A stretch of 64,000 nt of DNA from Cladocopium goreaui. Its lineage: Eukaryota > Sar > Dinophyceae > Suessiales > Symbiodiniaceae. The position numbers and the translations under genes are program-made. Below are positions 7,267 through 48,417 of the stretch, piece after piece. The stretch's first letter is position 1; every line of letters begins with the position of its first letter. The notes under the pieces were generated by a model. The model was not told the DNA's origin, made no database searches, and worked only from the letters and a program-made list of their open reading frames with translations. The stretch lies in assembly GCA_947184155.2 (NCBI GenBank), contig CAMXCT020001099.1, positions 1-64,000 of the forward strand, given 5' to 3'.

Positions 7267-7294
7267 GAGCTTGAGATCCACATTGGCACCAGCT
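7267..7294 (+). CDS. GH92 exon 1 of recognised series
   Basis: Acceptor GTGCAG, 28 bases, reads ELEIHIGTS then one base. Donor is GC (AGCT|GCTTCGG). The equivalent family strand is xxVRIGTSFIS. The first five intron bases, GCTTC, also open the next exon, so the cut could slide by up to five bases without changing the protein. Confidence 0.75.
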
Positions 7295-10200
7295 GCTTCG
7301 GTGAAGTGAAAATTCATGGTTGAAACCTGAATTAAAACGGGTTGGGGAGGTTCAATATGGTTTAACCGTTAACCATGAGGATGTCTGATATTTACCACAT
7401 TTTCTAACCATCTGTGTTCCCGAAATGAAAAACAAATCCGTTGATAGTAGCGGTTCACTGGGTTGGTTCAAGGGAAAACGTTCATGATGGCTCATCAAAC
7501 TCAACAGGGACATTAAACTAAATAGTCTTTAGGAATTATATTGATCCAGAATGATCCAGATATGTTCTTGCTGGTGAGGATGTAAGCCCAGATGCCCGCA
7601 CAACAAGTCTTGATAAAAGCTATCGTGGCAGCATTTTTTCTGTTTCTTCTTCGGGGATCACGACAATGGATACCCTATGGCTGACGAATGAAACAATCAA
7701 ACATCGCATGAAGGTCAGGCATCAAGTCATAATCATCGTAGCTCTCCATAGACACTTGGTATATATCCTGAATTGAAGACATTTTCCGGGATGTGACCAA
7801 AATCACCACCAGGAACCCGAAGGTTGTGAAGTCGAAGTCATTGGGAAGCCCCGAACTGAATTGCGGAGGCTTCATCTCAGCCGCTCAAGCCTTAAGGGCC
7901 GTGGATGCGGAGGTTCGCCGGTGGTTTCGGAGATGTTCAACTGGTGGGCTTGGGATATCCGTCAGGGAGGTTTCACCACCGAAAATGGTGGTATGGCAAC
8001 GGAAATGTTTGGGTATTATATAACGGGGATATATTTGGATTGTTCTGGGTTATTAATTGCTTTTTCGGAAAATCAATGATGGCAAGCTAGGATGTATGGA
8101 AAATCATGTATCAATGGGGAATTTTCATTGCCATGTTTGATTACGGGAGGGTAGGGTTTCAAGAACCACGTCTGAACATGGGGATTTACTGCAATTGTAT
8201 AGCGAAAATGGAGAAGAATGGAGATTGAGATTTGACCAGGCAGAACGGGGAAAGGCTTTCACCACATCCTGCCTTCCAGCCAGCAGAAGGTGATATAAAT
8301 CCTAGAACTACTAGGTTACTATGGTGACAATATATGGAGGTTTCCTAAATCCTAGAGGTCCCAAAAACATCATTTTTTTTGATTTTTAATGATTTTCGAT
8401 ACGAAAAAACCCATGCAGCTATTGGGGTACCCTAGGGAAACTTTTGAATACCAAGGTCCCGCCGGAACGTTCACGAGCCCCCAGAAACCTTGGCTATGCT
8501 GGTTTAGTTCACTAGATTAAACATGGTTAACTAGGGTTCATATGGGTTTATGGTAGATTTGTCATGTCATTATATTATACATACTTAATACATTCTTAAT
8601 ACATACTCAATGGAGTTTACAAACTAAGGGGTATTTGTTCTTTGTTATTTGTTTTCCAGCCTGGCTTCGTGGCTTTCGAGGCTGTTGTAGCTTTTGGATT
8701 CTTGGATATTCTTGGCTTTTGTGATTTCTTGGCGCTGTGCTGCAACTATTGTGCAGAAAACAAGTAAAACATTAATTAGGAAAAATAAGACAATAATAAT
8801 AATTGACAGTAATCGTCTTATACAAGAAAGACAAGATCCAACAAAAGAATTTGCAGGAACACTTTGATGACATCCAATGAAACTATTTACGTTATATTAA
8901 TAATATTATTATACACTATATACATGAAATAAAATCGGATTTTCCATTTTAAACCATGCAGCAATTGGGGTATCTCCATGACTTAGGAAACCTCCATATA
9001 ATTTTTGGGGGTGTAATTCCATTTAATGAGTATCCCACTATATTCCCATGACATTTCCATTAATATAGAGATTCATAATCCAAATCTCCAATTCATTATC
9101 GGCAATATCCAAATCTATCAGTTCATATTATTATAGTAATGGACTATTTATCTCTAATGGGATTGGTAATCTTGAATAATAACATATAGATAAGTAAAGA
9201 TTTCAATTAGATTAGTAAGCCAGATTAGTAGAGATTAATTGATTACTGTACTAATTATCATGGGTTGTTAACGGAAATATCCTATTATCATTATTATTAT
9301 TAGTCCCATAGGTAATATCATTAGTCCCATGGAAATTAACTATAGGTAATATATGATTATCCCGACTAGGGACTAGGAATATCATTAGTCCCTATTATCA
9401 TTAGTCCCATGGGATATAATTATCTTGCCCTATTATTATTGGTCCCATACCCATAGGATCCATGGTGCTGGTATATATATGCTAACATTTATTGGGGGTA
9501 TATTGATGGGATCCATGTTACCATATATAGCAGCACCATGGATCCTATGGGATAGGTAATCATCCAACTCCTTAAATCTCAGGTGAAGGGCAAGACCTTC
9601 GACGACCTGGTTAGTGAAGGTCGAGACGCCTGGCGAAAGTTGCTGCGGAAAGTGGAGGCCGCGGCTGCGGTGAACGGTGGTTTGGGGGGGAGTTCGCCAA
9701 AAAAATGATGGGTTTAACGAAGAAAAATTGTCATTTCCAGACATGGTAATTTAACCAAGAAAAATAGAGATTTCACCAAAAATTGGACTGAAGTTGCAAA
9801 CATGGAGAACTTATTCGATGTTTTTGGGGAAACAGTTGAAGATTTCACCAACTCAATATGGGACATTTTCAGAACAAAACATGGGATTTCACCAAGAAAA
9901 AGTGCCTGCCACCCTAGAGACTTGCAGAGGTTTACACAACAGGATTTGGCCTGCACCAGGCCTCTTTTGGGTTTTAGATCATCCCATAGCTTTTGGTAAT
10001 ATGTACAGTACCCTCTGGTTATGACTAACATAGCCATGGTATAGATGACCCTAATCGAAATAGATGGTTTACCTATTAAAAACGGGTGGATTTTCCATGG
10101 CTATGTTAAATAACCAGAGGGTAAAATCAATGAACATCACATTGTTTTGTAGGTGACACATCTATAAATGGTACATTTTTCTCTAGATATGCTCGTTTAC

Positions 10201-13200
10201 TGGAGAGGTATATACAATTGGTTTTAGAAGGACACATGTTTGAAGCCCATTGGAACCCCCAAGTTGTTCATTCCCGCGCAGGTTTTAGACGCAGGGCCGG
10301 CTACTGCTGCAACCTTCAGGCGGGTTGAAAGGTTTCAACGGGGTGTGAAAGTTGCAACGAATCCTTTGAACATGGGTTAACCTTGGCCTTGTTAACCTTG
10401 AGGTACCCTCTGGCAATCAACATGACTAATTATTGAACATGGCCCATCATGGCAAAACTATTGTTGATTACCTATTACAGATAGATGGTGATTTTCCATG
10501 ATTTTCCATACCCAAAGATGGGATACAACAATGTTCAAGACCCCAGAAGCTTCGCCTCTCCGACCGAGCTCAATGAGGCGCCTGGAAGTCTTCTACACCT
10601 CACTCTACCGGGCCCTGCTTTTCCCGCGGCGTTTGGATGAAGAGACGCCTACAGGCGTCAGTTTTTTGAGGGGCTGCCGGTGTCTCCCAAACCAAGGGCC
10701 AGGGTTGGGGGACCATTCGTAGCGAGGGATATTACTTCATATGGAGAGTCGAGATGGGTCAAATTTATTAGTGTTGCCGTGGGTTATAAGTTATAACCAA
10801 CAAATCTGCGGCTCAAACCCCAAAGAGCCTGCAAATTGTCACCTGGTTGGTGGTTTGGAGCATGAATTTTATTTTTCCATATATTGGGAATCATCATCTC
10901 AAGTGACGAACTCATATTTTTCAGAGGGGTAGGTATACCACCAACCAGAAATTATCTTCAGTAAACCGACGTTGATGTGTTCTCCAACTGTTTCCTCACC
11001 CTTTTGGAAGCAATTCGAACCGCGTCTTGGGCCGTCACTGAGAGTTCCAAGTCCTTCCAAGGCATACGACACTGGAGCCCGTACAGCGGGCAAGTGATGG
11101 CGGGCATCGGAGTTAGTGAGCCTTGGGGGAATCGGAAATCGATGACCCAACATGACGGTTGACATTTGGGTGATTTCATGGGGATTTCATGCGATTTAGG
11201 TAGCATTACATGGGATTTCATAGGATCTCACGGGATTTAATTGATATTTGAATATATTTCATGGGAATTGATGCTGACTTAAGTAGTGGAAAGTTGACAG
11301 ATGATGACCCAAATTGACTAATTCACTGGATTGGTTCAAGGGAAAAATCTACAGGATTTACCATGGTTTCCTGCAACATTTCCCCTGCAACATTGCCCTT
11401 AAAGCAATCCAATGACTCATGGAAATTTACGTGATTTTCCTTCTTATTTAATTAATTGGAAAATAATATGGTTATTAGTGGGTATTTTGCCAACAAAATT
11501 GTGAATAGTCATGGGATATCAATAGCTATAACATGGAACATAATGGCATAAATCATTGGGTAATCATGAGATGTAATAGGATATAATGTGGGATTGTACC
11601 TTACCTTACCTTACCCTCCTGTAAACATACAAAAAGATGTAGGAATCTACAAATGGTGGGATTTCCGCAAATTCTTATCTATGTTTACAGGAAGGTGTTT
11701 TTCGTGTTATCATGTTAAATTTTAAACATCTTTTTCAGATGGGTTGAAACCATCAATCAGCATACTAACAACAACCTTTAAAGTAATCATACAAGGCGGT
11801 TTCCCGGCCGATGCTTGTTGGTTTATGAACCCATGTAACTACAGTATAGAATATTGTATGATATATATATATATATACATACATAGTATATATATACATA
11901 GCATGAACCCTAGTTACTACCATATTTCTGGATTAACATCTGGTAATTTACCAAAGCTATGGAAGCAATGACCCGTAGAACTGTGGATCCGTATTTGTGT
12001 TCTAGTGTATCCGGTAGTACATGGAGGGAGCCGTTAATTTTCTCTATGAAATGCAATGAGCTCGAATTGAGTTTGCCAACCACATGATAGTTGGCATGTT
12101 CTTTTCGGGGAGATGCTAGCAGTAAACTGTTCATGATGGCAATGTACATGGAAGTATATGCTACCCTGAATTCTTCAGACGTATGTGGACTCTCAGTGAC
12201 TAGCTAAATGGTGCAAAAAAACATCATTGACAATCTATCCAGTGGTTGGGGAGCGTTTTCGGAGCTACTGTATGTATCATTATATCCATATTCTCTATTG
12301 GCCATGGAAAGCTAAGGAACTATACTCAGTTGATTCATGATTAGTTGGGGGATGATACAAACCGATATATAATCATGGGAAATATCATATTATAGCTGAT
12401 ATCTCCTAACCGCCTGATAGCAATGGAGAATTTTTCTGATCTTGATGTTCAGGGTCCCAGTGCTTGCCGAGGACAATGGCTTTTGGGACACCTTCCGAAC
12501 TGCAACTGGGCCTGAACGCAGCGCAGCTGGTAATTCAACATACATCTAGCTATGGACAATCAATGAAAATTGCCATTTTGCATAGTAAATTATCTATACA
12601 TCGGCCATTTTCCAAAGCTATGTTAAGTTATTAGGCAATACTTTTCCAAAGTAATTGAGATGTCTGAGGTGTTCTTGAGATACTGATATTGAGTGCAACA
12701 TGTGTTATTGCTACAAATTGCACCGACTTTAAACTTTAGACCAATGCAGAGAACTTACCGGTAATTTAAGTATGGGCGTACATCACAGAAGCGTATAGTC
12801 TTTGGTCATTTACTATGGCAAAACCATATGACACCATCAATTTTTCGGTGTTTTTGGGGCAGTGCATGTTTTTTCGCTTATTTTCAGGGATTTAATCAAT
12901 CAAAATCATCCAATTCTCCACTTTCCTCGAAATCAAAGACCAGCAAAGATCATCACAGAGCCGTTGAAACAGCGGCAGGTCTATCCTTTGTTGTCCATCG
13001 CGTATCCGAAGCAACTCTCCAACTTTGTGGCGGGATGGCTGAACTCCTTTGAGGTGCGCCATGGTGCGTCATTTCGTGATCTGCCGGAGCTTCATCTTTG
13101 GGCCCGTGAGTCGTTGTTTTCGTTGATTAACCCATGTTACTACATCATTATAGTCATAGATCTACATATATCTACCATAAAGCCTAGGTGAGCGGCTTGG

Positions 13201-16200
13201 TTTTGCAGCCGTACCCTCTAGAGTAAACGTGGTAACGTAACTGATGGGAAAATCACCATTTTTCAATGGGAAAATCCATTATTTCTATGGCCATTTTCAA
13301 TAGCTATGTATGTATGTTTACCAGGCCGGGAAACGTTAGGGTCCATGGTCAGGCTGGCGGCTGGCTGCCAAAATGGGCCAGCCCAGGTTATCGAGACTCC
13401 ATGGTGCCCTGGCGGTGCTGACGTGGGAGAAATGGTGTTTTCCATAGGGCTACCGGGCTACCCCTTTATCGCTGGTTGGTTTATTTCATGGAAAATCCAT
13501 GAAAATCCGATTCAAATGGATGATGACTGGGGGTATCCCTATTTTTCCATGAAATGGGATGATGTCCATTTGAAAAAAAACTTTTTAAAGACCATTATCG
13601 GCTGGAAAGAACATGTTCTTCTTTTCCGTTTGAAATGGGATGATGATTGATGATGATCCCAAAAGCGACGAACTTCTATTTTTGGGGCTTACCAAGCACC
13701 AACCATAGATGTCCTTTTCCCATTGGTTGGTTGATGAATAGAGGGGTTTGAAGAAACCCCTTTAACAACAGGTAAATGATGATAGATGGTATACCAAACC
13801 GACCCCCCAATTTTTACCAAAAAGCACCGGTTGAGATGATACAAGAAATCACCAGACATCAGGGCTTCTGACGATAGAACCAGCGATGATGTGGGCAAGT
13901 CTAGAAATCACCAACACTGGGGAGCACTGGGCAGTTGAGCCCTGTATTAGCTTGATTCTTGCTGCTGACAGCAGTCATATCTCGGTATGAAACTGCCTAT
14001 CATGGTTTCTTTATATGTGTATATACAAGATAGAATCTTAATGTCAGTTTATTTATATTCATTCTTCCGTCACTTATACGTTAAAACAACATCAATTCCT
14101 GCTTGTTTGATTGGATTCATATTGGATCTACTGGGATGTGCCACTTAGAAACCGGTTAAAACTTTCGTGAAGACAACATGTCAAAGTCAGATTAGAGTTT
14201 GGTGAGCAATCACTATTTAGATGCCAATGTTTTGGATGCAAGATTCAATTCGCCAGTTTTTTTTTTGCGGCCAATTTGTATATATGTGTGACATCTTATC
14301 AGCCTTTCAGGTTTCTTCAATGCCTTTCTTTTATTGGTTGACATGACTCGTTGGACTCATTGGTGCCTTATTTTGGTGGTTGAATCGACCATCCCTTTCT
14401 AGACTGGATAAAAATCAATCACACCTGTTTTGCATCTTTTTTCCGGGTTATTGTAGATAACAATACTTTTCATGGATGGACAAGTATAAACAGTACTGAA
14501 AGATAGATATATATATATCTAAGGGCTGCCGCCCCTGCCGCCGACCCCGGAACAAGCAACCGAGGTTGTGTCAGCATGTCAGTTTGTCTGTATTTCTTGA
14601 GACATTCTTGAAACACTTCATGCACCGCTGGTTCCTTCATGTTGATTTGAGCCACTTTTTCCTCCTGCTGCTGCTGCTGCTTCTGCTCCTGCTGCTCCTT
14701 CTGTTCAAACGGAGTACAGTAGAAGCATGTGATTTTCGCTACTATTTCCTCCTGCTGCTGCTGCTGCTGTTCAAAAAGACAGCACCCGGATGGAAAAAAA
14801 CCCTATAGCAGTGAAGGACGAAGAAGCCCCAAAATTGCACCCCAAAAATGCCTAACGTAACTTCTGAAACCCATAGAAAACGATGATTTGAGCCACTTTT
14901 TCCTCCTTCTGCTGCTGCTGCTTCTGCTCCTGCTGCTCCTTCTGTTCAAACGGAGTATAGTAGAAGCATGTGATTTTCGCTACTATTTCCTCCTGCTGCT
15001 GCTGCTGCTGTTCAAAAGACAGCACCCGGATGGAAAAAAACCCTATAGCAGTGAAGGACGAAGAAGCCCCAAAATTGCACCCCAAAAATGCCTAACGTAA
15101 CTTCTGAAACCCATAAAAAATGATGATTTTGGCTTTTTTTTCTTCTTGTTCCTGCTATGAATTTTGGCTACCTTTTCCTCCTGCTGCTGCAGAGGCTTTT
15201 GCTGCTGCTGCTGCTGCTGGTCCCCGGATGGGAAAACACCATGGCAGTGAAGGACGGAGAAGCCCCAAAATTGCACCCCGAAAATGCCTAACGTAACTTC
15301 TGAAACCCATAGAAAATGATGATTTTAGCTACTTTTTCCTCTTGCTGCTGCTATGAATTTTGGCTACCTTTTCCTCGTGCTGCTGCAGAGGCTTTTGCTG
15401 CTGCTGCTGGTCCCCGGATGGGAAAACACCATGGCAGTGAAGGACGGAGAAGCCCCAAAATTGCACCCCGAAAATCCCTAACGTAACTTCTGAAACCCAT
15501 AGAAAATGATGATTTTGGCACCTTTTTCCTCTTGCTGCTGCTATGAATTTTGGCTACCTTTTCCTCCTGCTGCTGCAGAAGCTTTTGCTGCTGCTGCTGC
15601 TGGTCCCCGGATGGGAAAACACCATGGCAGTGAAGGACGGAGAAGCCCCAAAATTGCACCCCGAAAATGCCTAACGTAACTTCTGAAAGCCATAGAAAAT
15701 GATGATTTTGGAACCTTTTTCCTCTTGCTGCTGCTATGAATTTTGGCTACCTTTTCCTCCTACTGCTGCAGAGGCTTTTGCTGCTGCTGCTGCTGGTCCC
15801 CGGATGGGAAAACACTATCGCAGTGAAAGGACAGAGAAGCTCCAAAATTGCACCCCGAAAATGCCTAACGTAACTTCTGAAACCCATAGAAAATGATGAT
15901 TTTGGCTACCTTTTCCTCCTGCTGCTGCAGAGGCTTTTGCTGCTGCTGCTGCTGGTCCCCGGATGGGAAAACACCATGGCAGTGAAGGACGGAGAAGCCC
16001 CAAAATTGCACCCCAAAATGCCCAATGTAATTTCTGAAACCTATAGAAAAAAATGATTTTGGCTGCTTTTTCCTCTTGCTGCTGCTATGAATTTTGGCTT
16101 TTGCTGCTGCTGGTCCCCGTTTGAAACCCATAGAAAACGATGATTTGAGCCACTTTCTTCCTTCTGCTGCTGCTGCTGCTTTTTCTCCTGCTGCTCCTTC

Positions 16201-19200
16201 TGTTCAAACGGAGTATAGTAGAAGCACGTGATTTTCGCTACTATTTCCTCCTGCTGCTGCTGCTGCTGTTCAAAAGACAGCCCCCGGATGGAAAAAAATC
16301 CTATAGCAGTGAAGGACGAAGAAGCCCCAAAATTGCACCCCAAAAATGCCTAACGCAACTTCTGAAACCCATAGAAAATGATGATTTTGGCTGCTTTTTC
16401 TTCTTGCTGTTGCGATGAATTTTGGCTACCTTTTCCTCCTGCTGCTGCAGAGGCTTTTTGCTGCTGCTGCTGCTGGTCCCCGGATGGGAAAACACCATGG
16501 CAGTGAAGGACGGAGAAGCCCCAAAATTGCACCCCGAAAATGCCTAACGTAACTTCTGAAACCCACAGAAAATGATGATTTTAGCTACTTTTTCCTCTTG
16601 CTGCTGCTATGAATTTTGGCTACCTTTTCCTCGTGCTGCTGCAGAGGCTTTTGCTGGCCCCCGGATGGGAAAACGCCATGGCAGGCCGCTTTTTCCTCTT
16701 GCTGCTGCTATGGATTTTGGCTACCTTGTCCTCCTGCTGCTGCAGAAGCTTTTGCTGCTGCTGCTGCTGCTGTCCCCGGATGGGAAAACACCATGGCAGT
16801 GAAGGACGGAGAAGCCCCAAAATTGCACCCCGAAAATGCCTAACGTAACTTCTGAAACCCATAGAAAATGATGATTTTGGCACCTTTTTCCTCTTGCTGC
16901 TGCTATGAATTTTGGCTACCTTGTCCTCCTGCTGCTGCAGAAGCTTTTGCTGCTGCTGCGCCCGGATGGGAAAACACCATGGTAGTGAAGGACGGAGAAG
17001 CCCTAAAATTGCACCCCGAAAATGCCTAACGTAACTTCTGAAACCCATAGAAAATGATGATTTTGGCCGCTTTTTCCTCTTGCTGCTGCTATGAATTTTG
17101 GCTACCTTTTCCTCCTGCTGCAGAGGTTTTTGCTGCTGCTGCTGCTGGTCCTCGGGTGGGAAAACATCATGGCAGTGAAGGACGAAGAAGCCCCAAAATT
17201 GCACCCCAAAAATGCCTAACGCAACTTCTGAAACCCATAGAAAATGATGATTTTGGCACCTTTTTCCTCTTGCTGCTGCTATGAATTTTGGCTACCTTTT
17301 CCTCCTGCTGCTGCAGAGGTTTTTGCTGCTGCTGCTGCTGGTCCCCGGATGGGAAAACACCATGGCAGTGAAGGACAGAGAAGCCCCAAAATTGCACCCC
17401 GAAAATGCCTAACGTAACTTCTGAAACCCATAGAAAATGATGATTTTGGCTACCTTTTCCTCCTGCTGCTGCAGAGGCTTTTGCTGCTGCTGCTGCTGGT
17501 CCCCGGATGGGAAAACACCATGGCAGTGAAGGACGGAGAAGCCCCAACATTGCACCCCAAAATGCCCAATGTAATTTCTGAAACCTATAGAAAAAAATGA
17601 TTTGGGCTGCTTTTTCCTCTTGCTGCTGCTATGAATTTTGGCTTTTGCTGCTGCTGGTCCCCGTTTGAAACCCATAGAAAACGATGATTTGAGCCACTTT
17701 CTTCCTTCTGCTGCTGCTGCTGCTTTTTCTCCTGCTGCTCCTTCTGTTCAAACGGAGTATAGTAGAAGCACGTGATTTTCGCTACTATTTCCTCCTGCTG
17801 CTGCTGCTGCTGCTGTTCAAAAGACAGCCCCCGGATGGAAAAAAAAACCTATAGCAGTGAAGGACGAAGAAGCCCCAAAATTGCACCCCAAAAATGCCTA
17901 ACGCAACTTCTGAAACCCATAGAAAATGATGATTTTGGCTGCTTTTTCTTCTTGCTGTTGCGATGAATTTTGGCTACCTTTTCCTCCTGCTGCTGCAGAG
18001 GCTTTTTGCTGCTGCTGCTGCTGGTCCCCGGATGGGAAAACACCATGGCAGTGAAGGACGGAGAAGCCCCAAAATTGCACCCCGAAAATGCCTAACGTAA
18101 CTTCTGAAACCCACAGAAAATGATGATTTTAGCTACTTTTTCCTCTTGCTGCTGCTATGAATTTTGGCTACCTTTTCCTCGTGCTGCTGCAGAGGCTTTT
18201 GCTGGCCCCCGGATGGGAAAACGCCATGGCAGGCCGCTTTTTCCTCTTGCTGCTGCTATGGATTTTGGCTACCTTGTCCTCCTGCTGCTGCAGAAGCTTT
18301 TGCTGCTGCTGCTGCTGCTGCTGGTCCCCGGATGGGAAAACACCATGGCAGTGAAGGACGGAGAAGCCCCAAAATTGCACCCCGAAAATGCCTAACGTAA
18401 CTTCTGAAACCCATAGAAAATGATGATTTTGGCACCTTTTTCCTCTTGCTGCTGCTATGAATTTTGGCTACCTTGTCCTCCTGCTGCTGCAGAAGCTTTT
18501 GCTGCTGCTGCGCCCGGATGGGAAAACACCATGGTAGTGAAGGACGGAGAAGCCCTAAAATTGCACCCCGAAAATGCCTAACGTAACTTCTGAAACCCAT
18601 AGAAAATGATGATTTTGGCCGCTTTTTCCTCTTGCTGCTGCTATGAATTTTGGCTACCTTTTCCTCCTGCTGCAGAGGTTTTTGCTGCTGCTGCTGCTGG
18701 TCCTCGGGTGGGAAAACATCATGGCAGTGAAGGACGAAGAAGCCCCAAAATTGCACCCCAAAAATGCCTAACGCAACTTCTGAAACCCATAGAAAATGAT
18801 GATTTTGGCTGCTTTTTCTTCTTGCTGTTGCGATGAATTTTGGCTACCTTTTCCTCCTGCTGCTGCAGAGGCTTTTTGCTGCTGCTGCTGCTGGTCCCCG
18901 GATGGGAAAACACCATGGTAGTGAAGGACGGAGAAGCCCTAAAATTGCACCCCGAAAATGCCTAACGTAACTTCTGAAACCCACAGAAAATGATGATTTT
19001 AGCTACTTTTTCCTCTTGCTGCTGCTTGCTGCTATGAATTTTGGCTACCTTTTCCTCGTGCTGCTGCAGAGGCTTTTGCTGGCCCCCGGATGGGAAAACG
19101 CCATGGCAGGCCGCTTTTTCCTCTTGCTGCTGCTATGAATTTTGGCTACCTTGTCCTCCTGCTGCTGCAGAAGCTTTTGCTGCTGCTGCTGCTGCTGGTC

Positions 19201-22119
19201 CCCCGATGGGAAAACACCATGGCAGTGAAGGACGGAGAAGCCCCAAAATTGCACCCCGAAAATGCCTAACGTAACTTCTGCAACCCATAGAAAATGATGA
19301 TTTTGGCACCTTTTTCCTCTTGCTGCTGCTATGAATTTTGGCTACCTTTTCCTCCTGCTGCTGCAGAGGCTTTTGCTGCTGCTGCTGCTGCGCCCGGATG
19401 GGAAAACACCATGGTAGTGAAGGACGGAGAAGCCCTAAAATTGCACCCCGAAAATGCCTAACGTGACTTCTGAAACCCATAGAAAATGATAATTTTGGCC
19501 GCTTTTTCCTCTTGCTGCTGCTATGAATTTTGGCTACCTTTTCCTCCTGCTGCAGAGGTTTTTGCTGCTGCTGCTGCTGGTCCTCGGGTGGGAAAACATC
19601 ATGGCAGTGAAGGACGGAGAAGCCCCAAAATTGCACCCCGAAAATGCCTAACGTAACTTCTGCAACCCATAGAAAATGATGATTTTGGCACCTTTTTCCT
19701 CTTGCTGCTGCTATGAATTTTGGCTACCTTGTCCTCCTGCTGCTGCAGAAGCTTTGCTTGCTGTTGCTGTGCTGCTGTGGTCCCCGGATGGGAAAACACC
19801 ATGGCAGTGAAGGAGGAAAAACCCAAAAATTGCACCCCGAAATGCCTAACGTACTTAGAACCCATAGAAAAGATGATTTTTGGCACTTTTTCCTCTTGCT
19901 GCTGCTTATGAATTTTGGCTACCTTTTTCTTGCTGCTGCAGAGGGCCTTTTGTGCTGCTTGCTCTGGCCCGGATGGGGAAAACCATGGCAGCTTGAGGAG
20001 GCGAAAAAGCCCCAAAATTGACCACCCCCAAATGCCTCAACGAAACTTCTGGACCCATAGGAAAATGATGATTTGGCTGCTTTTTCTCTTTGCGAGGCGG
20101 CTGCTATGAATAGAAGTTGGCGCCTTTCCTCCTGCTGCTGCAGAGGATTTTTGCTGCTGCTGCTGCTGGTCCTCGGGTGGGAAAACATCATGGCAGTGAA
20201 GGACGAAGAAGCCCCAAAATTGCACCCCAAAAATGCCTAACGCAACTTCTGAAACCCATAGAAAATGATGATTTTGGCTACCTTGTCCTCCTGCTGCTGC
20301 AGAAGCTTTTGCTGCTGCTGCTGCTGCTGCTGGTCCCCGGATGGGAAAACACCATGGCAGTGAAGGACGGAGAAACCCCAAATTTGCACCCCGAAAATGC
20401 CTAACGTAACTTCTGAAACCCATAGAAAATGATGATTTTGGCACCTTTTTCCTCTTGCTGCTGCTATGAATTTTGGCTACCTTTTCCTCCTGCTGCTGCA
20501 GAGGCTTTTGCTGCTGCTGCTTCTGGTCCCCGGATGGGAAAACACCATGGCAGTGAAGGACGGCGAAGCCCCAAAATTGCACCCCCAAAATGCCTAACGT
20601 AACTTCTGGAACCCATAGAAAATGATGATTTTGGCTGCTTTTTCCTCTTGCTGCTGCTATGAATATGAAGTTTGGCTGCCTTTTCCTCCTGCTGCTGCAG
20701 AGGCTTTTGCTGCTGCTGCTGCTGGTCCCCCGATGGGAAAACACCATGGCAGTGAAGGACGGAGAAGCCCCAAAATTGCACCCCGAAAATGCCTAACGTA
20801 ACTTCTGAAACCCATAGAAAATGATGATTTTGGCCGCTTTTTCCTCTTGCTGCTGCTATGAATTTTGGCTACCTTTTCCTCCTGCTGCAGCAGAGGCTTT
20901 TGCTGCTGCTGTGCCCGGATGGGAAAACACCATGGCAGTGAAGGACGGAGAAGCCCCAAAATTGCACCCCGAAAATTCCTAACGTAACTTCTGAAACCCA
21001 TAGAAAATGATGATTTTGGCTGCTTTTTCTTCTTGCTCTTGCTATGAATATGAAGTTTGGCTGCCTTTTCCTCCTGCTGCTGCAGAGGCTTTTGCTGGTG
21101 CTGCTGCTGGTCCCCGGATGGGAAAACACCTATGAATTTTGGCTACCTTTTCCTCCTGCTGCAGCAGAGGCTTTTGCTGCTGCTGCTGCTGGTCCCCGGA
21201 TGGGAAAACACCATGGCAGTGACGGGCGGAGAAGCCCCAAAATTGCACCCCGAAAATGCCTAACGTAACGAGCTGCTGGCTGCTGCTGGCTGCTGCTGCT
21301 GCTGCTGCCGCTGCTGCTGCTGCCACCTTTTTAAGAGCTGCTGGCTGCTCCTAGCTGGCTGCTAGCTGCTGCTGCTGCTCCTGCTGCTGGTGCGGCTAAA
21401 CTTGCTTGTCTTTGCTTTACTTCTCCTGCTGCTGCTGCTGCGCCTGCTGCGGTAGTAGCCCGAAACAATTTTTATACCACTGTTTGTACAATGAGACATA
21501 GAACCCTCCTGTTGCTCCTGCTGCTGCTGCTGCTGGTGATGCTGGCGTCTGCTGATGCTGCTGCAGCTGCTGCTGCTGCTGCAGGGGCGCCGCCGCCGCC
21601 GCGCCGCTGCGGACGCCGCTGCTGCCGCGACCGCCGATGCCGGCCGCCGCCGACGCAGCCGCTGCGGCCGCCCGCCGCTGCCGCTGCCGCCGAACCGCTT
21701 GCTGCTGCTCCTGCCGTGCCATCAACCAGCCTCCAAGGCGAGAAACCAACAGCCAGACATCTTTTTCGAAATTCACTCGAAACAGCAAAACACCACCTAA
21801 TTTCGTGCCAAAAATGGCGCAAAATCGCAGCAAAAAAGTGCCTAACGTGTCTTCTGAAATCCTAGAGAATCCTAGAGAATCCTAGACTATACATCCTAGA
21901 AAATCTTAGACTATATATAGTACTGGCTGCCTGCTGGCTGCTGCAAAAACGTGGGAAACACCATAGCAGTGAAGGTCGCAGCTGCCGCTGCTGGTGCCGT
22001 CGTCCGCTCCTGCGCTGCTGCTGCTCCTGCCGTGCCATCAACCAGCCTCCAAGGCGAGAAACCAACAGCCAGACAGCTTTTTCGAAACTCGTCGTCGTAG
22101 TAGTAGTAGTAGTAGCAGG

Positions 22120-22154
<35 letters not shown>

Positions 22155-26299: not shown

Positions 26300-26353
<54 letters not shown>

Positions 26354-35300: not shown

Positions 35301-38300
35301 GTTTAGAAACTGAGAATCTTCTGCCAACGGGATGTATAAATAGGTTTGAATAAACATATATAATCATATATATATATATGTATATGTAGCTAGCAGACAT
35401 GTATAACAATTATGATATATATATGATTCTATAGATATAGAGCTGTATGTATATTTGGATGAGTTCTAACAACGTCACTTCCACGTCACCCAAAATGGCC
35501 GAACTTTTCCGGTTGTTGAAGTGTTGCCATTCATCTCGATATACTTGTACTAAGAATCCGAAATGATTTATACGGTAGTTTACGGGAAACCCCCATATTT
35601 CATGGAGAAAAACCCAGGATTTCCGGTCAAGAATTTCCCATGAAAACCAATCCAGCAAAGGTGTCTAAGATTGACCGTGAGAAATGTCGTTCCAAGAAAT
35701 TGCAGGTGCCAGCGGACTTCAAGACGGGCTCCTACAAAGTGGCCTGGCGTGGAAGCGACAATGGCAAGAACATGCAGGAACTCGTGTGGTAAATCCTTCA
35801 TCAACCATTATAAACCAATATATGGATATTTGATGATACTGTATTTCATGAGAGATTGCAATTGACAGTGATTGTCAACATGGCATTATTCATGAAACAA
35901 CAATTGACAATATGGATATATTTTACAACACCGGGGTTAATTATATAGATATATATATTATTTATATTATGTTGGTTACTTATTTATTTCTTTATGGATG
36001 TCAATCATATAATCATATATGTTATGATTTTGGGGACGGGCATAAATTGGTGAACGCGAATGCTGCAATCGCTATGCATGATTTCTATAGGCTACATGTA
36101 GGTAGATACTTAGAGAATGGTAAATGCAACATACCCTCTGGTAATTTAACATAGCTATTGAACATGGCCATTTATAGTGAGTTTTCCCATTAAAAATGGT
36201 GATTTTCAGTAGTTTTTTGTATGTTTACCAGAGGGTACATTGATGAGTTTGGTTGTGAATCATGTGTGACACGAGGCGGAAATCCACGAAATGCGCGAAA
36301 TGCGCATGCTTGGAATGGGCCTCTCGGTCTGTTTTTCGGGCGTTGGATCGTTGTGCCTAGAGTCAAAACTGTGGCTGTGTCTCAAGTCATTTGATATCCC
36401 ATATTGAAATCTACCATCTTTCTGAAATATGATGGGATCTATTCACATCATTTTGAAGATGCGTGGATTTTTGTGCTCCAGAATGGCTCCAGGGAACTCC
36501 AAGGTCAGTATGCACACAACAATCAGCCTGCGCATCATCTTCCATACCTGCTCCTTGGCGCCAGATCCCCATCTTCCTCGAGCATCATGATTTTTCGGAT
36601 CTCGGCTGTGCTCGTCTGAAAAACCATCTTTGGCTTGCTGAAAAAACCCCGAATTTTTCTTGCTCAAAGATCGCGCTAAATGGTCAAAAATGGTCAAAAT
36701 ATCATAAAATATCTACTTACTGCACCATTCTGAAGATGCATATCCAACTGGAATCAATACTGTAGTCACATTTCCCTGGTCAAATCGCCATTTTTCATCA
36801 GTGAATGTGGGATGCTTTCTAGCTTATCTGAGTTTGTCCCAAGACGGAGTAGATATGAGTAGATTACCCTCCGGTAATCAAACATGGCAATGGACAATCC
36901 CTCCATTTGTAGCTGGTTTTCCCATATTTTCCCATTATCACAAATTCCCTATTATTGTTCAAATCCATATGTATGCCATTAAATCCCATCAATTATATCT
37001 AATGTTTCCCATCTACAATCAAACCAAAGAAAAGAATATCACATCATCATTTCCACTCTTTCCCGAATATTTCTATATGTTTTGGGACACCCCCAACCCC
37101 ACGTGGGATCTCCTTCCGCGGCTCCCGAGATTCTCGATGTTGGGCGATCAAAACCGCACCGCTCGGCTGGTGCGGGACGTCCTTTTTCGCGCCTACTCGC
37201 CCGAGGGCTTCGCTGGGGACGAGGCTGGTAAACTAACAGTTTGCTATTGAACATGGCCATTGAAATAGTGGATTTACCCATGAAAGATCGTGATTTTCCA
37301 TAGTTATGTGAACGTTTACCGGAGGGTAATTCCCATAATAGTTTGTATAGGACATGGTTACTGTATAAGATGGTATAAGAATTATACATATTTTGGGATT
37401 ATTATATATAAGATAAATGGTATAACATGAGGTATCCAACATTTACATCATTTACCATATTTTGGGATGATTATCCAATCTTATAATTACATGGCTATTT
37501 GTGAATTATCAAACGAGGTAACCCAACATTTACCCAAATGGTACCAAAATAGGACAATTACCATAAATGATGATAAATGGTACTCCCCGAAAAGAGTAAA
37601 CCAGGACTTTCAATTGGTACTTGGATATGTTTTCTCATGTCAAATCCCGGTAGCCCTGCTGCGAGGACAACGGGGAGATGGGTTCCTGGTATGTGCTGAG
37701 TGCCATGGGCCTGTACCAGCCTGTGTCCTGGCTTGAGGTATTGAGCAAAACTCATGTGTTTTGTGGCTTTTGTATGACGAATGATTGCGAACATAATATA
37801 TATATTTGATGTATGAATAATCTTTATGATTTATATGCATATTTATGAATTTATGATGAATGTTGCGGTAAGTTTTGGTGACTGGTAGGCTGTATGTTTT
37901 CATTCTTAGCTGTACATGGTGGGCGATTGTGTTTATGTGCTGTATCTGGGGTAGCTGGAAATTTGGTATCCAAACCAAACGGGCATGCTACTGCCACAAA
38001 GGAGTAGCAGCCGTGTGGTTCCAGGGTCGCGGGTTTTGACCCAAACATCCCAAAACCAACACAGTTTCCCACCTTGCGGGAACTCAAAATATGTTCAAAA
38101 ATGAATGTTTAAAAACAGCGGTTGACTGTTCTTTGATAGTCTTTTTTTGTTGGTAAACTTTGGTAAATCATTTTTTTTTTGTACCGAATTCTTTGATGTT
38201 CATCGGCGACATCGCCGGTTGGCTGCAAACGGTCGACCCGTTGTGGTTGACTCTATGATGGTTATCATCATCAGATTCATGGTTAGCATAATTTAATAAT

Positions 38301-38818: not shown

Positions 38819-38862
<44 letters not shown>

Positions 38863-38863
38863 G

Positions 38864-38907
<44 letters not shown>

Positions 38908-41900
38908 CAGCTGTCTTACCATTTTTAAAACAATAAGATGATGGTAAGATTTTTAAAAAACGGTAATATCATTATTGTCATTATATATCATTGATATCAT
39001 TATTACCAGTTATCATTATCATCCCAGTTGTCTTACCATCCCAGTTGTTACGAAAACCTGGATCTTTCGGAATCGGCTTAAGTTGCCCAGGCCCCCGGCG
39101 TCGCGGAGAACTTCACGCTGGGCGCTGTGCCACTCTTCCCTCGCATCAGGCGGCACCCGTGGTGGTTTCCATGGGTTGATGATGGTGAAATATGGTGGTT
39201 TCCTATGGGGGTACCCTCCAGTAAAGTAACGGTTTGCTATTGAACATGGGCCATAGAAATAGTGGATTTACCCATTGAAAATTGTGATTTTCCATAGTTC
39301 TGTAAACGTTTACCAGAGGGTACCCCTCAATCATCCATTTTAATATAGGGATTTTCCACTATAAACCATCTTTTTTTGGGGTACCCTCATTTATGGAAAC
39401 CCCTGGTTAATGTAAGTTCATGTGGTAAACCCAATTTCATAAACCATCCCCAAAACCACAATTTTTATGGAAGGTAGTAGAAACTAAACCATGCCAAAAT
39501 GGTAGGTTTCTGGTATTGGGTTGCCCACATTCGGAATTTTGCTTACTGAAATTGCCATACAAAGGTGGTTGAATACATTAATAATCCATCTAACATTTCG
39601 TTGTTTTCACAATTTTATAAACATGATCAGAGATTGGATTAAAATTGGTGTATCAATTGGAATATTAAGAGGAAATACATGTGGAAATATAACCATCAAA
39701 GTGGGTTATGGGTTAGAATGGCAGGAAAAGCAACTACCAACTATACTAGTAGATAGAAAAATTGGGAAACCGGGAAACTATGTGAAACATACAATTTGTA
39801 GACCATCTTGAATATTAGTTGAGTTTCATCATTGTCGCTGCTGGCTATGACTGGGGAAGTGCAATCCCCCAGTCTTGGGCAATGGTGTATGGACTCAATG
39901 TAACATCTGCATGAGTTCCCGCGTTTTCTCCCACCAAATATGGTGGTTTCCTGTAGATTTTGCCCTTAAACAAAATCCACGGAACTGGGAATGTAGGGAA
40001 AACAATTGTGGAGGATAAATAGTCGGGTTTCCACAGGTGTTTGAATGCTGTTTTGTTGGCAAATGTCCGTTTTGGTGATTTTGAACATCACCTTTGAATA
40101 CTTATATTTGGACATTGAGAACATATCATAATTTGTTAGTTTTCGGATTGATGATTCGCTGATATTCGCTGATAAAAAATCATAATTTCGAGGAGTCCAA
40201 CATATTCCAACATATTCCAAGAATCTTTGGGAGAAATTGCTGGTGGTGTTGGGTGACTGTCGGGTGACTAGGGTGACTAGCCCATTTCTGGCATGAACAT
40301 TTTGGTGCCTGGATTTGTGGCTGACATAACATGGAGGGAACATCCACTGAAATGGACCAAAGGGAAATCCAGGTATAAACTAAGGATCAAGGATGATATT
40401 ATAGTAATTCACATATATATATATAACAAAATATATACTATTGAGTATATATATATATGTATAACACTATGATATATTATGTATAGATACCATGATAATA
40501 TGTATATATAATATATATATAGTTACATATCAAAATCCCGCCCATTGAATCCCTATTTTCATGGTGAACTCCCAGAGGCTATGGGAGCTGGACGTGACCG
40601 TGGAAGCGCCTTCGGCCAGCGAGGTCTACCCCAGCATCCAGGTCTACTGGGGATACCCACATGGCGAGTGGAAAAAGAAGCCCCCGTTGATGGTTGATTA
40701 TTTGGGGTTATACTACCTGCAGATGACATGGGAGTTGTCGGACATACCTAAAAAACGCAAACTCCCATGTCATCTGCAAAGTGAAAAAAACAGAAGAATG
40801 CATAAGTCCCGTGTCATCTGTAAAGTGCCTCGGAAAAAAAAAAATCACATGACATGGGACCTCTGCAATTGTTTGGGCTCCAAAAATATGCAAAACATGT
40901 CATGTCAACTAACTCACACTCTGTACACTTCACATCCCACATGAACAAAGATAGTATATGAGTGTATAACTACCTGCTAGCAGTTAGAATAATCCAAAAT
41001 TATACGTCAGCAGCTGGAATATTCCAAAGCCACATGAATCCATTCACCTCCTTGTTCTATTTAGCAACTATTTAGCAGCTATTCAGAAGCTATTTAGCAG
41101 CTCTTTAGCATTTATTCAGCAGCTATTTACTTGCTATTTAGAAGCTATTTAGCAGCTATTTCGATGCTATTTAGAAGCCATTTATCAGTTATATATATCT
41201 GGGTAAATCATGACTAAGGGAAATCATCCCCAAGTGGCCGCAACTATTCAGGTTAGTGAAATATGATAATTTACCCATATATATATATATAATATATATA
41301 TTCCAATATGTATATATATATATATATTCCAATATGTATATATATATATATATTCCAATATGTATGTATATATATATATGATTATATTCCATATTTTATT
41401 AATTGTATATTTGTGATGGTATTATCACAATCGCAGATGGGAGACTTTGGATCACCCTGAGACCGTGCTCAGTGAAGGGACGGTAGAGGGTTTTGAACAC
41501 CGCGCAAACAACAAAAAGGGATGTTCACCTGGCAAAAGTAGGATTTAGGATGGATTAAACATGGATTTTAAAGGGATTTTGCCCGACACACTGTGGGATT
41601 TTCATAGTTGGTTCACCATCCAGTTTTTTTTGGTGCTGCTACGTTGATCCTAAAGCCCAAGCACCAAAAAAGACCAAGAACACATTGAAACCATCCAAAT
41701 TTAGGGAAGATAAGGTGTGTTTTTTTTAAGGTTTGTTGTGCAAAAACTAAGAACTAATAGTAACTATAGGAATCTAAGGAACACAAAACTGTTGAAAATT
41801 TCCAATGTTTTCCTGACTTTTTTTTTCTTCGCTTGGTAGCACGGTTCCTCCAGGCCGTGCTGTGGCGTTCCAAAGCCATTGCTGGGACATCGATCTCCTA

Positions 41901-44900
41901 CTCGCAACTGCGCCACTGAGTCGAAGTTGGGATAATTGGACCTGAAATCATGGAATTTGATATATGTCATATTAATACGTCTATATCTATATGGCATGAT
42001 ATTATAATATATATATATATTTACAGATATACATATATATATATATATATGTTATATATGTATATGTTATATATGTATATGTTATATATGTATGTATATA
42101 TATATGTAATTTGAAGATATTTCAAGACTTTTGTTCGAACTCCATTCTGGCGTCATCTCCATATTCTCGTGATTCATGGTTTCGTCCATTGTCGGAGATG
42201 ATGTTCCTGGATAGAATGTTCGAATCACTAAGAGTGTGGGTGTTTGGGTGTATGGCATACGCATATGGTAGAAATACGGTGGATGGTTGCGAAATCCTGC
42301 ACCAGTTGATAGATGGTTTATCCCATTGTTTATAGGGTTTCAACCATCCAAGGTGGTGCAGGATTTCTTCCATCCACAGTATCAGCAAAAAGATTCGTAT
42401 TCTTTACCAGTGAACAGATGTGTCACTGTGTCACCAACTATCACCCATAAGATGGGTCTACCGAGTCTGCAAAATGCACAGTTGACCAATATCGCCGCGA
42501 AATGGCCGTTTTTAGAGCTGTGTCGTTGAACATATGGGTATGTCGGAAAATAGGGTAATTATCCCCAATTCCAGTGGTGAATGTGGTGAATATCATTTTG
42601 ATGATCAATTTTGATATTTTTTTGGATATTGATGATTTATATTTGATAATTAGTTTCTCAATTTTTGGATGGTTAGTTTTGAATCATTTGGAGGTTTCCT
42701 AAAATGGGGGTACCCACATAATACATATTTTGATAGATTTTTCCATGAAATAAACCATCCAGGTATTGGGGTACCCTCATTTCAGGAAACCCCATTATCA
42801 CCAATTATTAACCATTAGTAACCATCATTAACTTTATATATTAGCCATATATCAGCCATATTTTGAGGACATCCCCATATTTAATGATCATTTTCCGGTA
42901 GGTCCCCACCTGAGCTCACCTGGTCAGGCACCGGCGGCATCTTGCGCTTCTTGTCCCCAGAGGATTCCTCCTTTGGCAACGTCGCCACTTGGAACGCGGT
43001 GACGGCGGTGAGTCTTGAGGGGAAGGCACCCATCCATCGGTGGGCCATTCTGCCGAAGCTGAATTTTGGGATTACAGTAAAATAGATATTAATAATTGGG
43101 ATAATAATTGGGATTATAATATTATTAAGTTATTATCCGAAGCTGAATTATCATTTAATAATTGGGATAATAACCCAGGGATGATGCGCATGTCTCCTCA
43201 TAATTCCTAATAGATATTATGCCAAGCGATGATAGGCTGCATATTACAAAACTGATTGTTTTCATCGATTTTTTCAAAACATCCCCTCCCCTCTTGGGAT
43301 ACCCTCTGGTAAACATACAAAAAACTATGGAAAATCACCATTTTTAATGGGAAAACTCACTATAGTAAATGGTCATTTTCCATAGCTATGTCAAATTACC
43401 AGAGGGTAAATGGGGATTGATTCCACCCGATTTTTTTCGCCTTTTTTTATCGGCCAATTCAGGTGTCTTCCTTTCGAGGGGCCTTCCAACGAGCAGCAAA
43501 GCAGGTGGGGTTTTGCAGCCCTGTTGGGATGCTTGGTTGGTTGGGTGTCACAACTTGTGCTTCTCATTTTGGCGCAGAATCCGGGAATGGGACTTTTTTT
43601 GCGATATAATCGACTTGATGTAGGATAAATCGAATGCAAAAGGGATGGTGAAAGATGAAAGATCCACATGGATGTGAATGAACATCAAAGATACTTCAGT
43701 GCAATGAATATTATGGGATATTATGGGAATGGACAGACAATCCCAAATTATTGGAACACCAATCACATGGATGATCTACAAACAATATGTCACGACATGT
43801 AGTCAGCCCGAACATAAGCAATTTCGGATTTAGCTGCTTGAAGAGAATTTAGGTTATTGCAAACCATACTCAGTTGCGGTTTACGTCTACATAGGTCGTA
43901 CCACATCAATATGTCTACTTACCACCGAAACAATGGTATTGAATCCATCAAGCATGAATCTGTACCAATAAAGGGGAGTTCAAAGAAGAACAATGCAGAT
44001 TTCAACCAACCACGACCAACAACTAAGTGGGTGTTTGAGCAATGGAACCAAAGTCAGAATACAACTCGTGATCAGGGATACATATGACAGAATGTATGTC
44101 AGAATATACATATATATATATATATACGTCACATGAATTTTGCAAGATCGAATGTTAGAATATACGTTAAAATACATGATGTCAAATTATATTTCAAGTG
44201 AAATTTGCCAGATCCAATGTCAGACTCTATGTCAAAGCTCATGTCAGAGTTGATGTCAGAATATTTGCCCGAGTGCCTTTCAGAAGGAATATACGTCTGA
44301 AGTTTGTCAGAAGATAAGAAGATTGAAGATACGTCAGAAAATATGTCAGAACAAATCTCAGAATATATATATATATAGTTATCAGGAGAAGTGTCTGAAC
44401 CCAACATATGTCAGCTTGTGAGAATGTTTACATGGGATCATCGTTTTTTCGATCCTTGCAAGGTGCTGTCCCATAGTTAGCTAAGTATCACTAGGTTACC
44501 CTATTGTAAACTAACATAGCTATGGTAAATCACCATTTTCAATGGGTAAATCCACTACAAATGGCCATTTTCAATAGCTATGTTAGTCATTACCAGAGGG
44601 TACCTAGGGTTATGATAAAAGGACAAAGAACTGGGGGGGCACCACCTTTCAACATCATGAAACATCCCATGAAAAATCCTCATTCTACCACCATCAAATT
44701 CGTGATTGAACCATTTTTTGAACCACTATTTCCCATCATTTTGGCCGCTTCAATCTCATCTCGTTGGCGGTTTGGAACATTTTTTATTTTTCCATATATT
44801 GGGTTTTTCATCATCCCAACTGACTTTCATATTTTTCAGAGGGGTAGGTATACCAGCAACCTGTCATGAAATCCCCATGAAGTCCCACTTGAACTCCTCT

Positions 44901-47900
44901 ATTTGTTCTTTTGTTGTTGCTTCAATCGCCACGTTCCGCAACGGAAAATGATCCAAGTCCGCAGGTCCGCAGCAGAGCGGAGCGCTCCGTCGAGGGCGCG
45001 GCGGGTCAAGCGAGCGCGCTGCCGGCACCGTCGGCAGTGCTGGTGGATGACGTGATGGTCGACCCAGAGGTGGGGGGTCCTCCGGATGCCACATTTTAGC
45101 CCAGATGGTATGGCACACCCTTTCATTTTGAACATACAGACATATACACACACATACACATACATATATAATCATGTATATATATATATATGTATGTATG
45201 TACATACATGTACTTAAATAAACGTATATATATATATATATTATATATATAGATGGTGAAACCAGAAATTTTTAGCTGAAATATTTCTAGGTGTGGGGGC
45301 GGGGGAGACCCCCCTCCCTTTTTGAAATATTTCAGTTTTTACCCCCCCCACCCCCCCCGCCCTTTAAGGGGGGGATGTTGTACATGTTGTTTCCCATTGA
45401 TTTGTATCCACCATTTGGGGAATCCACCGGGATTGCTTTTTACTTGTTTGGTTGCTCTAAAGTTCTAAAGCAAATCCAAGTGATGCTTCTAGGGGGGTTG
45501 ATGCTTTCAGAGTTTGGCAATTTTAGGGTTTTTCATGGGGTGGCATTTCTTCTGGGAGGAACCAACGATTAGATGATTACGGTAACTGGTACCCAAGCCA
45601 CCAGGAATAATAACTTCAGGTGATGTTGGTTGGGAGTCTGCTTGGGGATGTTTTTTTTTGGGGGGTGTTGGTTGGGATGTTTTTTGGGTTTAGGCTATTT
45701 AGGTATAGGTTAGAGATCATTTTCCAACAAGATGGGGATCTGGATCAGTCAGCTTTGCTAAAATCTGCGGATTGGATGGAAACTTAAATGAATTTGAACA
45801 ATGAACCAGAAAATCGCTGTAGATGTATGTTCGACTAAATAGAATGATGTATTCAATATATCTGAATTATGGTAGGTCGTATCCGCACATTTTTTTAAAA
45901 GCAACATCATGTTTTATCCCAATTTCTTATGTCAATCCCCTAGAATTATTGTTAGCCATTTGTAGCTTCGCCATACGAGTAGATATACTAGGCCTGTCTC
46001 AAGAATTATAGCCCCCCCCGAATTTAATGGGTTTTCACCCTTTTCCATGTTAGAATTACCATTTCCGTATATTCCCATCATGAAACCAGGTCGCAGATGT
46101 TTAGAACGCATCCAATAAACACGAAGAAACCGCAGAAGTTAATAATGGTAGAAACCCATCTAAAATCATGTTTGTTTCTATAGATATTGCTGTAATCGAG
46201 TTTAACTAACGCATCTTTCCAGTGGAAAAAACCACTGGTTTTCACCAGCTGTACTGTGGAAAAACCGGCTTAGCGGCTAGACCTTGACGAAGCGTCCGTT
46301 TGTGAGTGGCATTGCCAATGTTTCAGAGGCTGCTGGGATTTGGAATTGTCTGGTGTTTCAAGGGAAGTGTTGAACAGATTCTGGTGGCATTGCCAATGCT
46401 TCAGAGTGTGGTTTTGGTCGTTGTTCAGAAATTCTGGGTTCCGTTTGAACGCAATTCTGTGGAATTCAGTTGCCTGATTTTGACATGGCTTCGATGGATT
46501 CTTTGGCAATTTCCGGAGGGTACCCTGTGACCATCTATCAACGGGAACTGATCAACCAGTCGAATTTTGGGGTACCCGGACCGGGTACCCTATGGCCTGA
46601 GGCAACCCCACAGGGTTTGAAAGTCAGTAATGACCAGTTTGCTTCGGAAACTAACAATGACTTTATTCCAGTAGAAGCATGGTTTTTCAAAATTCCAAAT
46701 CCATTTCTCGGCGTTCCATGAGGTTTTACAGGAGTAACCCGCATGATTTTTATGTACAACCAGTGTTTGAGCAGCAAGATTTGGAATGATACCAACGAAG
46801 ATCCCAGACACAAGTATCCAATGATTAGAAAGCCACCAACAAAATGTGGATAGATAAATAATCAGTAAACTTCCGGGACAAACTTCCGCGACACACTTCA
46901 GGTTTTCCAACAAAATTTCAGGTGCCCCGTAGAGGGGCCCCCGCCCTGCGCGGGTACCAGGCGTCACATGGCAATTTCCTCTCCATCTGCAGCGTGGTGT
47001 TGGTCCTCGGGGCAGCCGTGCTGTCCTATCGCTGGAGGTGAATGATGACTGGGGATGGTCGCGAAAACAACAACAACTGGCGTATTACCACATGAAATGA
47101 TGAGTTATAAGATGTTATAAGATGTTATACGATGTCATAAGATGTTAATAAGATGTTATAAGATGTTGTAAGATGTTATAAGATGTTATAATACGTTATA
47201 ATATGTTATAATATGTTATAAGACGTTATAAGATGTTATAAGATGTTATAATATGTTAAAATTATATTATAATATGTTATACGCTGTTATAAGATGTTAT
47301 ATGATGTTATAAGATGTTATAAGATGTTTTACGATGTTTTACGATGTTATAAGATGTTTTACGATGTTTTGCGATGTTATAAGATGTTATAAGTTATAAG
47401 ATGTTATACGATGATATAAGATGTTATAAGACGTTATAAGATGTTATAAGGGGTTATAAGACGTTATAATATGTTATAAGATGTTATAAGATGTTATAAT
47501 ATGTTATAATATGTTATAAGATGGTATAAGATGTTATACGATGTTATAAAATGTTATAATATGTTATAAAAGGTTATAAGATGTTATAAGATGTTATAAG
47601 ACGTTATAAAATATTATAAGATGTTATACGATGTTATAAAATGTTATAAGATGTTATAAGATGTTATAAGATGTTATACGATGTTATAAAATGTTATAAG
47701 ATGTTATAAGATGTTATAAGACGTTATAAGATGTTATAAGATGTTATAAGATGTTATAAGATTTTATAAAATGTTATAAGATGTTATATATATAATCTTA
47801 TTGATGTTGTGCTGCTGTTTTTGAATAAGTTCACCAATGAAATATCATAAACTATATAAAGTATCAAATAATTGAATCTAACTTTACAGTTTATGTTTTG

Positions 47901-48417: not shown

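Follow-up and report, generated by a model that had tools for sequence, protein, structure and literature searches.

The closest described counterparts of the gene reported here are the BT3990-type alpha-1,2-mannosidases of Bacteroidota, members of family GH92, for which catalytic roles have been assigned to Glu, DED and His-Glu residues (PMC12858847, PMC10167667). Among eukaryotes, GH92 enzymes have been described in Aspergillus nidulans (AnGH92A/B; PMC12858847), one GH92 is entered in the carbohydrate-active enzyme (CAZyme) table of the cryptomonad Goniomonas avonlea (PMC6260743), and an account of Breviolum CAZymes reports an upregulated mannosidase, its main text naming no GH92 (PMC10438907). 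Dinoflagellate genes are described as long, with GT, GC or GA donors and with mobile elements (PMC11114475; review PMC11453091), those of Effrenium voratum being ~92% intron, with a mean gene of 20 kb and 18 introns (PMC11114475). Here we analyzed 64,000 nt of contig CAMXCT020001099.1 of the dinoflagellate Cladocopium goreaui (forward strand of assembly GCA_947184155.2, which comprises 1.166 Gb in 6,202 contigs); this whole stretch is called the window. Very probably it holds most of a gene that is incomplete in the window and encodes an exo-alpha-mannosidase of family GH92, bacterial alpha-1,2 type; this estimate covers the whole explanation jointly, the exchange between two loci set out below included. 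No report of a dinoflagellate GH92 was found in the open-access literature, judged from titles and the starts of abstracts (subscription papers and CAZy lay outside this scope). The gene would be a new member of an already known family.

To locate the gene, eight bacterial GH92 proteins from plasmid records were searched by tblastn, and GH92 motifs were recovered in family order on the plus strand from 9.6 to 37.7 kb. A 28-residue probe (12,463-12,546, containing DNGFWDTFRT) matched three PDB chains, all of them GH92, with weak E-values (0.85-1.3). Single open frames returned nothing for GH92 from Pfam, an exon-wise search being required, and a family search of the source genome with PF07971 gave no match at an E-value of ≤0.001, an outcome that the shortness of the individual exons probably explains. 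The spliced-profile aligner modelled matches, insertions and deletions, allowed introns in any of the three phases, and accepted GT, GC and GA as donors and AG as acceptor; its profile was built from 82 GH92 proteins (82 of 85 retained by length), most from a single genome scan (at least 595 pattern matches, at least 587 confirmed, best 80 kept). An initial alignment scored 222.5 bits on the plus strand versus 31.4 on the other, and a later one used a mild base-composition term for exons. With this term, window positions 1-50,000 aligned to the profile at 321.1 bits; the two altered sequences, reverse-complemented and simply reversed, reached 40.5 and 40.2 bits, and nine profiles with shuffled columns gave 32.2-44.3 bits. 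Given 321.1 bits against 32.2-44.3 across these 11 decoys, the GH92 signal lies far beyond chance. That the exons are short, and many of them weak singly in tblastn, is what might be expected had an intron-tolerant aligner (or reader) merely assembled short matches by chance, an explanation that the decoys refute (321 bits versus at most 44) and to which we attach virtually no probability; the exons also recur on two more contigs. Joined, the window exons scored 300 bits against PF07971 (cut-off 24.6) and 269.7 bits against TIGR01180 (curated cut-off 249.55), scores that are inflated because the exons were picked by their fit to GH92, the 11-decoy comparison being the fair control. An earlier reading made from the letters alone (the sequence-only reading) had proposed GH92 homology in many small exons on one strand in family order, with a Pfam search of the joined exons as a check, and in both respects it was borne out, on the plus strand, by the tblastn, spliced-alignment and family-model results.

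The accepted model comprises 24 exons encoding the GH92 catalytic domain and spanning 7,869-43,007 on the plus strand (1,345 nt in total; 30-94 nt each, mean 56 nt), separated by introns of 185-8,980 nt (median 1,076, computed with slightly different exon ends). The 32 exons of the sequence-only reading, running from 7,267 to 48,417, were not confirmed in number or extent, nor was its statement that all but one junction match in phase: in the model as listed, 18 of the 23 junctions keep phase. One misfit is a single-base shift at 39,149/39,150, and two further ones vanish with alternative exon ends picked by other alignment runs; two junctions stay out of phase (24,397 to 26,864, and 27,965 to 30,908, the second being the site of a missing exon). 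Donors as listed were 10 GT, 10 GC and 3 GA (the exon end at 39,149 not counted) and acceptors were AG, mostly followed by G; since the aligner permitted GT, GC and GA only, the tally does not independently prove splicing of the dinoflagellate type. In-frame stops were absent from the 24 exons (the aligner was set to avoid stops), and the GC content of 19 core exons together was 57%, compared with 41% for the window. Spliced-profile alignments of the window found no family-supported exon 3' of 43,007. Aligner exons at 3,162-3,186, 10,332-10,342, 10,703 and 26,586-26,592 were discarded as fillers, as was one at 29,156-29,233, positioned inside a retroelement. A GH92 gene of ordinary structure for a dinoflagellate, in an unusual taxonomic home, is a well-supported reading of these alignments.

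Along the plus strand, the model opens with exon FISAAQALRAVDAE (7,869-7,912; acceptor AG then G, donor GT), placed by spliced alignment and also present on a second contig, C846. Three exons recovered by both tblastn and spliced alignment follow, namely VKGKTFDDLVSEGRDAWRKLLRKVE (9,583-9,657, which may extend to 9,689), FYTSLYRALLFPRRLDEETPT (10,569-10,654, start at 10,569 or 10,578) and IRHWSPYSGQVMAGIGVS (11,062-11,117, start uncertain), and then the exon with the DNGFWDTFRT motif (12,472-12,501; PDB probe, tblastn and spliced alignment). Exons VYPLLSIAYPKQLSNFVAGWLNSFE (12,979-13,053) and AGGWLPKWASPGYRDSM (13,353-13,403) were found by spliced alignment and by protein search of the source genome, the latter also by tblastn. 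The 8,980-nt intron contains tandem arrays of ~190-bp units (15,025-21,212, no strand). Exon IGTFADVVLADAIVKNIS (22,384-22,438; tblastn and spliced alignment), of which protein and segment searches of the source genome found no second copy, is followed by three exons placed by spliced alignment: FDIDLAWQAMYKDSY (24,351-24,397, end at 24,397 or 24,400), LSAQPRKGLDVYKE (26,864-26,909, boundaries uncertain and, as drawn, out of phase with the exon before) and NGFVPMDVGIGE (27,929-27,965). In the 3' part, spliced alignment and a copy on a third contig, C1308, back exons SMYDVKTGLMGHRKKNK (30,908-30,960, start uncertain), GSAWHHSFPPFDLETLA (32,986-33,036), ELHGGKRPLLEKLETLFT (34,113-34,166), VPADFKTGSYK (35,706-35,738), QYAHNNQPAHHLPY (36,504-36,549, found by tblastn as well), APGVAENFTLGAVPLFPRI (39,091-39,149), LWELDVTVEAPSASEVYPSIQ (40,578-40,641), AVLWRSKAIAGTSISYSQL (41,854-41,911) and TGGILRFLSPEDSSFGNVATWNAVTA (42,928-43,007), the last with family support, which ends at a GTGAGT donor.

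Among these 3' exons lie four that carry active-site residues. In the alignment to BT3990 (published residue number taken as chain number + 19, a presumed offset), the general acid Glu, the DED bases and the His-Glu pair were all kept, and the window codons were checked. The codon of the general acid Glu (32,248-32,250; Glu533 of BT3990) ends the exon at 32,203-32,250 (start at 32,203 or 32,190; spliced alignment and C1308 copy). The His-Glu motif of the 580 loop, which belongs to the alpha-1,2 subgroup of GH92, stands at 36,285-36,290 (His584-Glu585 of BT3990) in the exon at 36,276-36,318 (tblastn, spliced alignment and C1308 copy). The DED motif is divided between two exons, both found by tblastn and spliced alignment and copied on C1308: that at 37,130-37,223 ends in Asp-Glu (37,218-37,223; Asp642 counterpart at 37,218-37,220), and that at 37,666-37,722 starts with the general base Asp (Asp644 counterpart, 37,666-37,668). 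Outside the window, a THQPSPW exon on C846 (174,249-174,320) holds a Pro-Trp whose match to Trp88 of BT3990 would follow from the numbering offset only. The spliced product would be a Ca2+-dependent inverting mannosidase in which Glu (32,248-32,250) is predicted to act as general acid and Asp (37,666-37,668) as general base, and would be expected to trim terminal alpha-linked mannose off glycans.

In the catalytic domain, identity to the Bacteroidota-type GH92 proteins compared was 34-41%. In a quick tree of 51 rows (the window protein, 41 of the 82 close sequences and 9 outgroup loci, with no eukaryotic GH92 among the other rows) the window protein had a very long branch (3.49); it fell on the same side as the 47 nearer sequences and outside a clade of 40 rows (36 Bacteroidota, 2 Pseudomonadota and 2 unlabelled plasmid loci). 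The protein being unplaced, this tree names no donor and dates no transfer. Tentatively, dinoflagellates might possess an old bacterial-type GH92 alpha-1,2-mannosidase, unlike the fungal enzymes studied so far, that was taken up anciently, later split into ~30 or more exons and is still active on high-mannose glycans of their own wall or of a partner; we regard this as a possibility with somewhat less than even prospects.

The sequence-only reading had called the gene intact or recently intact, and for the window as assembled "intact" is not supported: the N-terminal domain lies off the contig start, and one barrel exon of ~40 residues is absent. An N-terminal beta-sandwich domain (PF17678) within window positions 1-7,868 was rejected, as scores there were no better than those of controls. 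Window positions 1-19,109 correspond to C846:183,438-202,594 at 98.5% identity; in the first 14.6 kb of this overlap there are 12 substitutions and 16 gaps. Outside the overlap, ~6 to 12 kb upstream of the equivalent of window base 1, C846 carries N-terminal GH92 exons (85.3 bits versus 22.0-27.6 in 11 decoys); a search with one N-domain exon located it at a single place in the assembly. C846 runs alongside the window as far as the ~190-bp tandem array, enters it and goes no further, and from the array to 220 kb no further GH92 was found on C846 with three exon probes and the whole window. On this overlap the gene is bigger than the window, its predicted N-terminal domain exons being those on C846.

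The (alpha/alpha)6 barrel is incomplete in the window, where profile positions ~466-508 (~40 residues, one exon) are not encoded. Scans for this exon in 27,966-30,907 were at chance, and the C1308 exon with its flanks gave short chance matches only against the window. C1308 encodes these positions as one exon, ACSRTLDFGFADAACSAVAERLGR, of which a single copy was found in the assembly, on C1308, where it comes after a long terminal repeat (LTR) retroelement. In the window, a truncated LTR-type retroelement (28,432-30,675, minus strand; one 172-bp LTR plus inner part) stops at 30,675, the missing-exon junction, and the sequence picks up 8.4 kb further on in C1308 terms with a 1-base overlap. Window positions 30,675-63,288 align collinearly with the C1308 minus strand (substitutions ~2.3-2.6%; introns 2.3%), and C1308 carries the 3' half of the GH92 gene as a 2.3%-diverged copy. 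No 5' exons were found on C1308 (protein search of the whole contig; directed searches of bases 1-100,000; bases 100,001-162,491 by whole-genome searches only), and the middle segment of the window (22,300-28,430) was found once in the assembly (40 of 20,892 candidates scored, most matches being microsatellite; its exons also by protein search). The 3' collinearity, the clean junction at 30,675 and the failure to find the exon in the window would all be accounted for if the window were a true contiguous paralogue of C1308 that had lost 8.4 kb by real deletion, namely the remainder of the retroelement together with the exon next to it, and was now a pseudogene or coded for a shortened protein. 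Such a deletion would leave unexplained the lack of 5' exons in the C1308 searches just described, as well as the mismatch in the C1308 target duplication: ATTAC precedes the window LTR and also follows the right C1308 LTR, whereas the left C1308 LTR is preceded by ATATC (5 bases in each case). Nor would it explain the 172/172 match between the LTR of the window and the right LTR of C1308: an insertion older than the split of the copies should have accumulated ~4 differences. We consider a real deletion unlikely, while allowing it an appreciable share of the probability.

The flanking bases (ATTAC/ATTAC versus ATATC), the identity of the LTRs despite the ~2.3% difference of the introns, and the single-copy segments suggest an exchange between two loci at the element, which is the simplest reading, to which the target-site duplications and identical LTRs point, and the most likely cause of the incompleteness of the window. 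The window and C1308 may be swapped at the shared element, via misassembly or recombination. The window 5' part and the C1308 3' part would then flank a single insertion within one complete gene, and the window 3' part would be a partial copy, 2.3% diverged, attached by way of the element. Because the segments that have no copy in the window are present elsewhere in the genome, an intact GH92 gene probably exists in the genome as a whole.

Comparison of the window with C1308 also bears on whether the exons are constrained. The 13 shared exons differ by 4 substitutions in 740 positions with no indels, whereas the introns differ by 248 in 10,732 with 95 indels (Fisher P = 0.0004 for substitutions and 0.005 for indels), which supports exon constraint, a classic excess of silent changes not being supported. 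The incompleteness of the gene in the window, the two leftover phase junctions and the long tree branch would fit an old pseudogene, that is, scattered GH92 remnants without function. Between copies, however, the exons are ~4-fold less diverged than the introns and free of indels, the catalytic residues are retained and the 24 exons lack an in-frame stop (subject to the aligner setting noted above), and we judge an old pseudogene to be quite improbable. The length of the introns is probably due to continuing insertion of repeats and LTR-type elements. The C1308 intron equivalent to window positions 33,037-34,112 carries a 9,629-bp LTR-like insertion whose 282-bp ends are identical and which duplicated 5 bp of its target, and in the window this site is empty, which is direct evidence of introns growing by insertion. 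The earlier idea of a eukaryotic GH92 gene with repeat-enlarged introns is supported by the ~190-bp arrays, the LTR fragment and the C1308 insertion.

Several points weigh against the explanation favored here. Three of the four exon differences alter a residue (V/I, A/T and I/L; conservative or mild), and the one silent difference falls in a split codon at 37,130; with three of four differences non-silent, exon conservation is no clean signature of purifying selection, and gene conversion could also produce it. A match of 5-bp targets has a chance of 1 in 1,024. The 1-base overlap at 30,675 means that a plain overlap misjoin there is not natural, and that an exchange must sit within the 2.2-kb shared element. 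A long-dead partial copy as the window 3' part would, a little awkwardly, be expected to have exons more drifted than those seen. The element, which may be copia-like by its motifs, returned nothing named when its reading frames were searched against Pfam and PDB. The C846 N-domain passed the PF17678 cut-off by a narrow margin (34.7 versus 34.5 bits), and the tree, with its very long branch, gives the window protein no firm place.

Repeats and open frames of other kinds were also seen in the window. A ~115-bp repeat in a GH92 intron (10,835-10,948) has inverted ends (CTGGTTGGTGG / CCACCAACCAG) that would form a hairpin, and related copies occur on C1308. A dispersed ~100-bp repeat (23,672-23,771 and elsewhere) gave 28 matches at ~21 places on both strands, 7 of the ~21 matching on both strands; it is palindromic and resembles a miniature inverted-repeat transposable element (MITE) or an introner. 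Downstream of the GH92 exons, an AT-rich stretch (47,104-47,788) holds ~68 copies of the 10-bp unit GTTATAAGAT, and an array of a 44-bp unit (51,006-52,239; 27.6 copies, 89% matches) stays open over long distances in two or more frames of the plus strand. A GC-rich open stretch at 55,092-55,334 (plus strand), which includes the reading CPRLDVEKKKMLDLCRKMRKLGLQHMCDIKGSASIKADSEARLAKIEIWDR, resembles an exon of another gene; Pfam returned no match for it at an E-value of 1, nor for 10 further window reading frames searched at an E-value of 0.01, 11 in all. For the peridinin-chlorophyll protein (PCP) family, searches gave 150 matches in the source genome, while none of 14 control genomes was positive, which identifies the source as a peridinin dinoflagellate; PCP genes form tandem arrays on C360, C278, C1913, C2358, C4249 and other contigs, the matches being mostly paired.

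Taken as GH92, this gene would add dinoflagellates to the few eukaryotes with a member of the family, and in it the motifs at the active site of the bacterial alpha-1,2-mannosidases are retained. It would also show intron growth caught mid-process, one intron existing in two copies, the first carrying a young LTR-like element that duplicated its target and the second empty. Because the gene is spread over three contigs at repeats, automatic gene calls are likely to overlook it or cut it short. Mannose-bearing surface glycans may play a part in algal-cnidarian recognition and, if the source is a symbiont, an alpha-mannosidase would be of interest in that context.

Compared with known systems, the window shares the general acid Glu, the DED motif and the His-Glu pair with the BT3990-type alpha-1,2-mannosidases of Bacteroidota (PDB set including 2wvx and 2ww1), and differs from them in that the dinoflagellate gene is split by introns and its protein sits on a long branch outside the mostly Bacteroidota clade. 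With the fungal AnGH92A/B it has in common a eukaryotic setting and the Glu/Asp catalytic pair (PMC12858847), whereas the dinoflagellate exons have His-Glu, plus Pro-Trp on C846, unlike the fungal enzymes as judged by description. In structure it is like the intron-rich dinoflagellate genes of E. voratum, being long and mostly intron, with GT, GC or GA donors and mobile elements; it is longer than the E. voratum mean and its exons are very short (56 nt on average), but it does not amount to a structure of a new kind.
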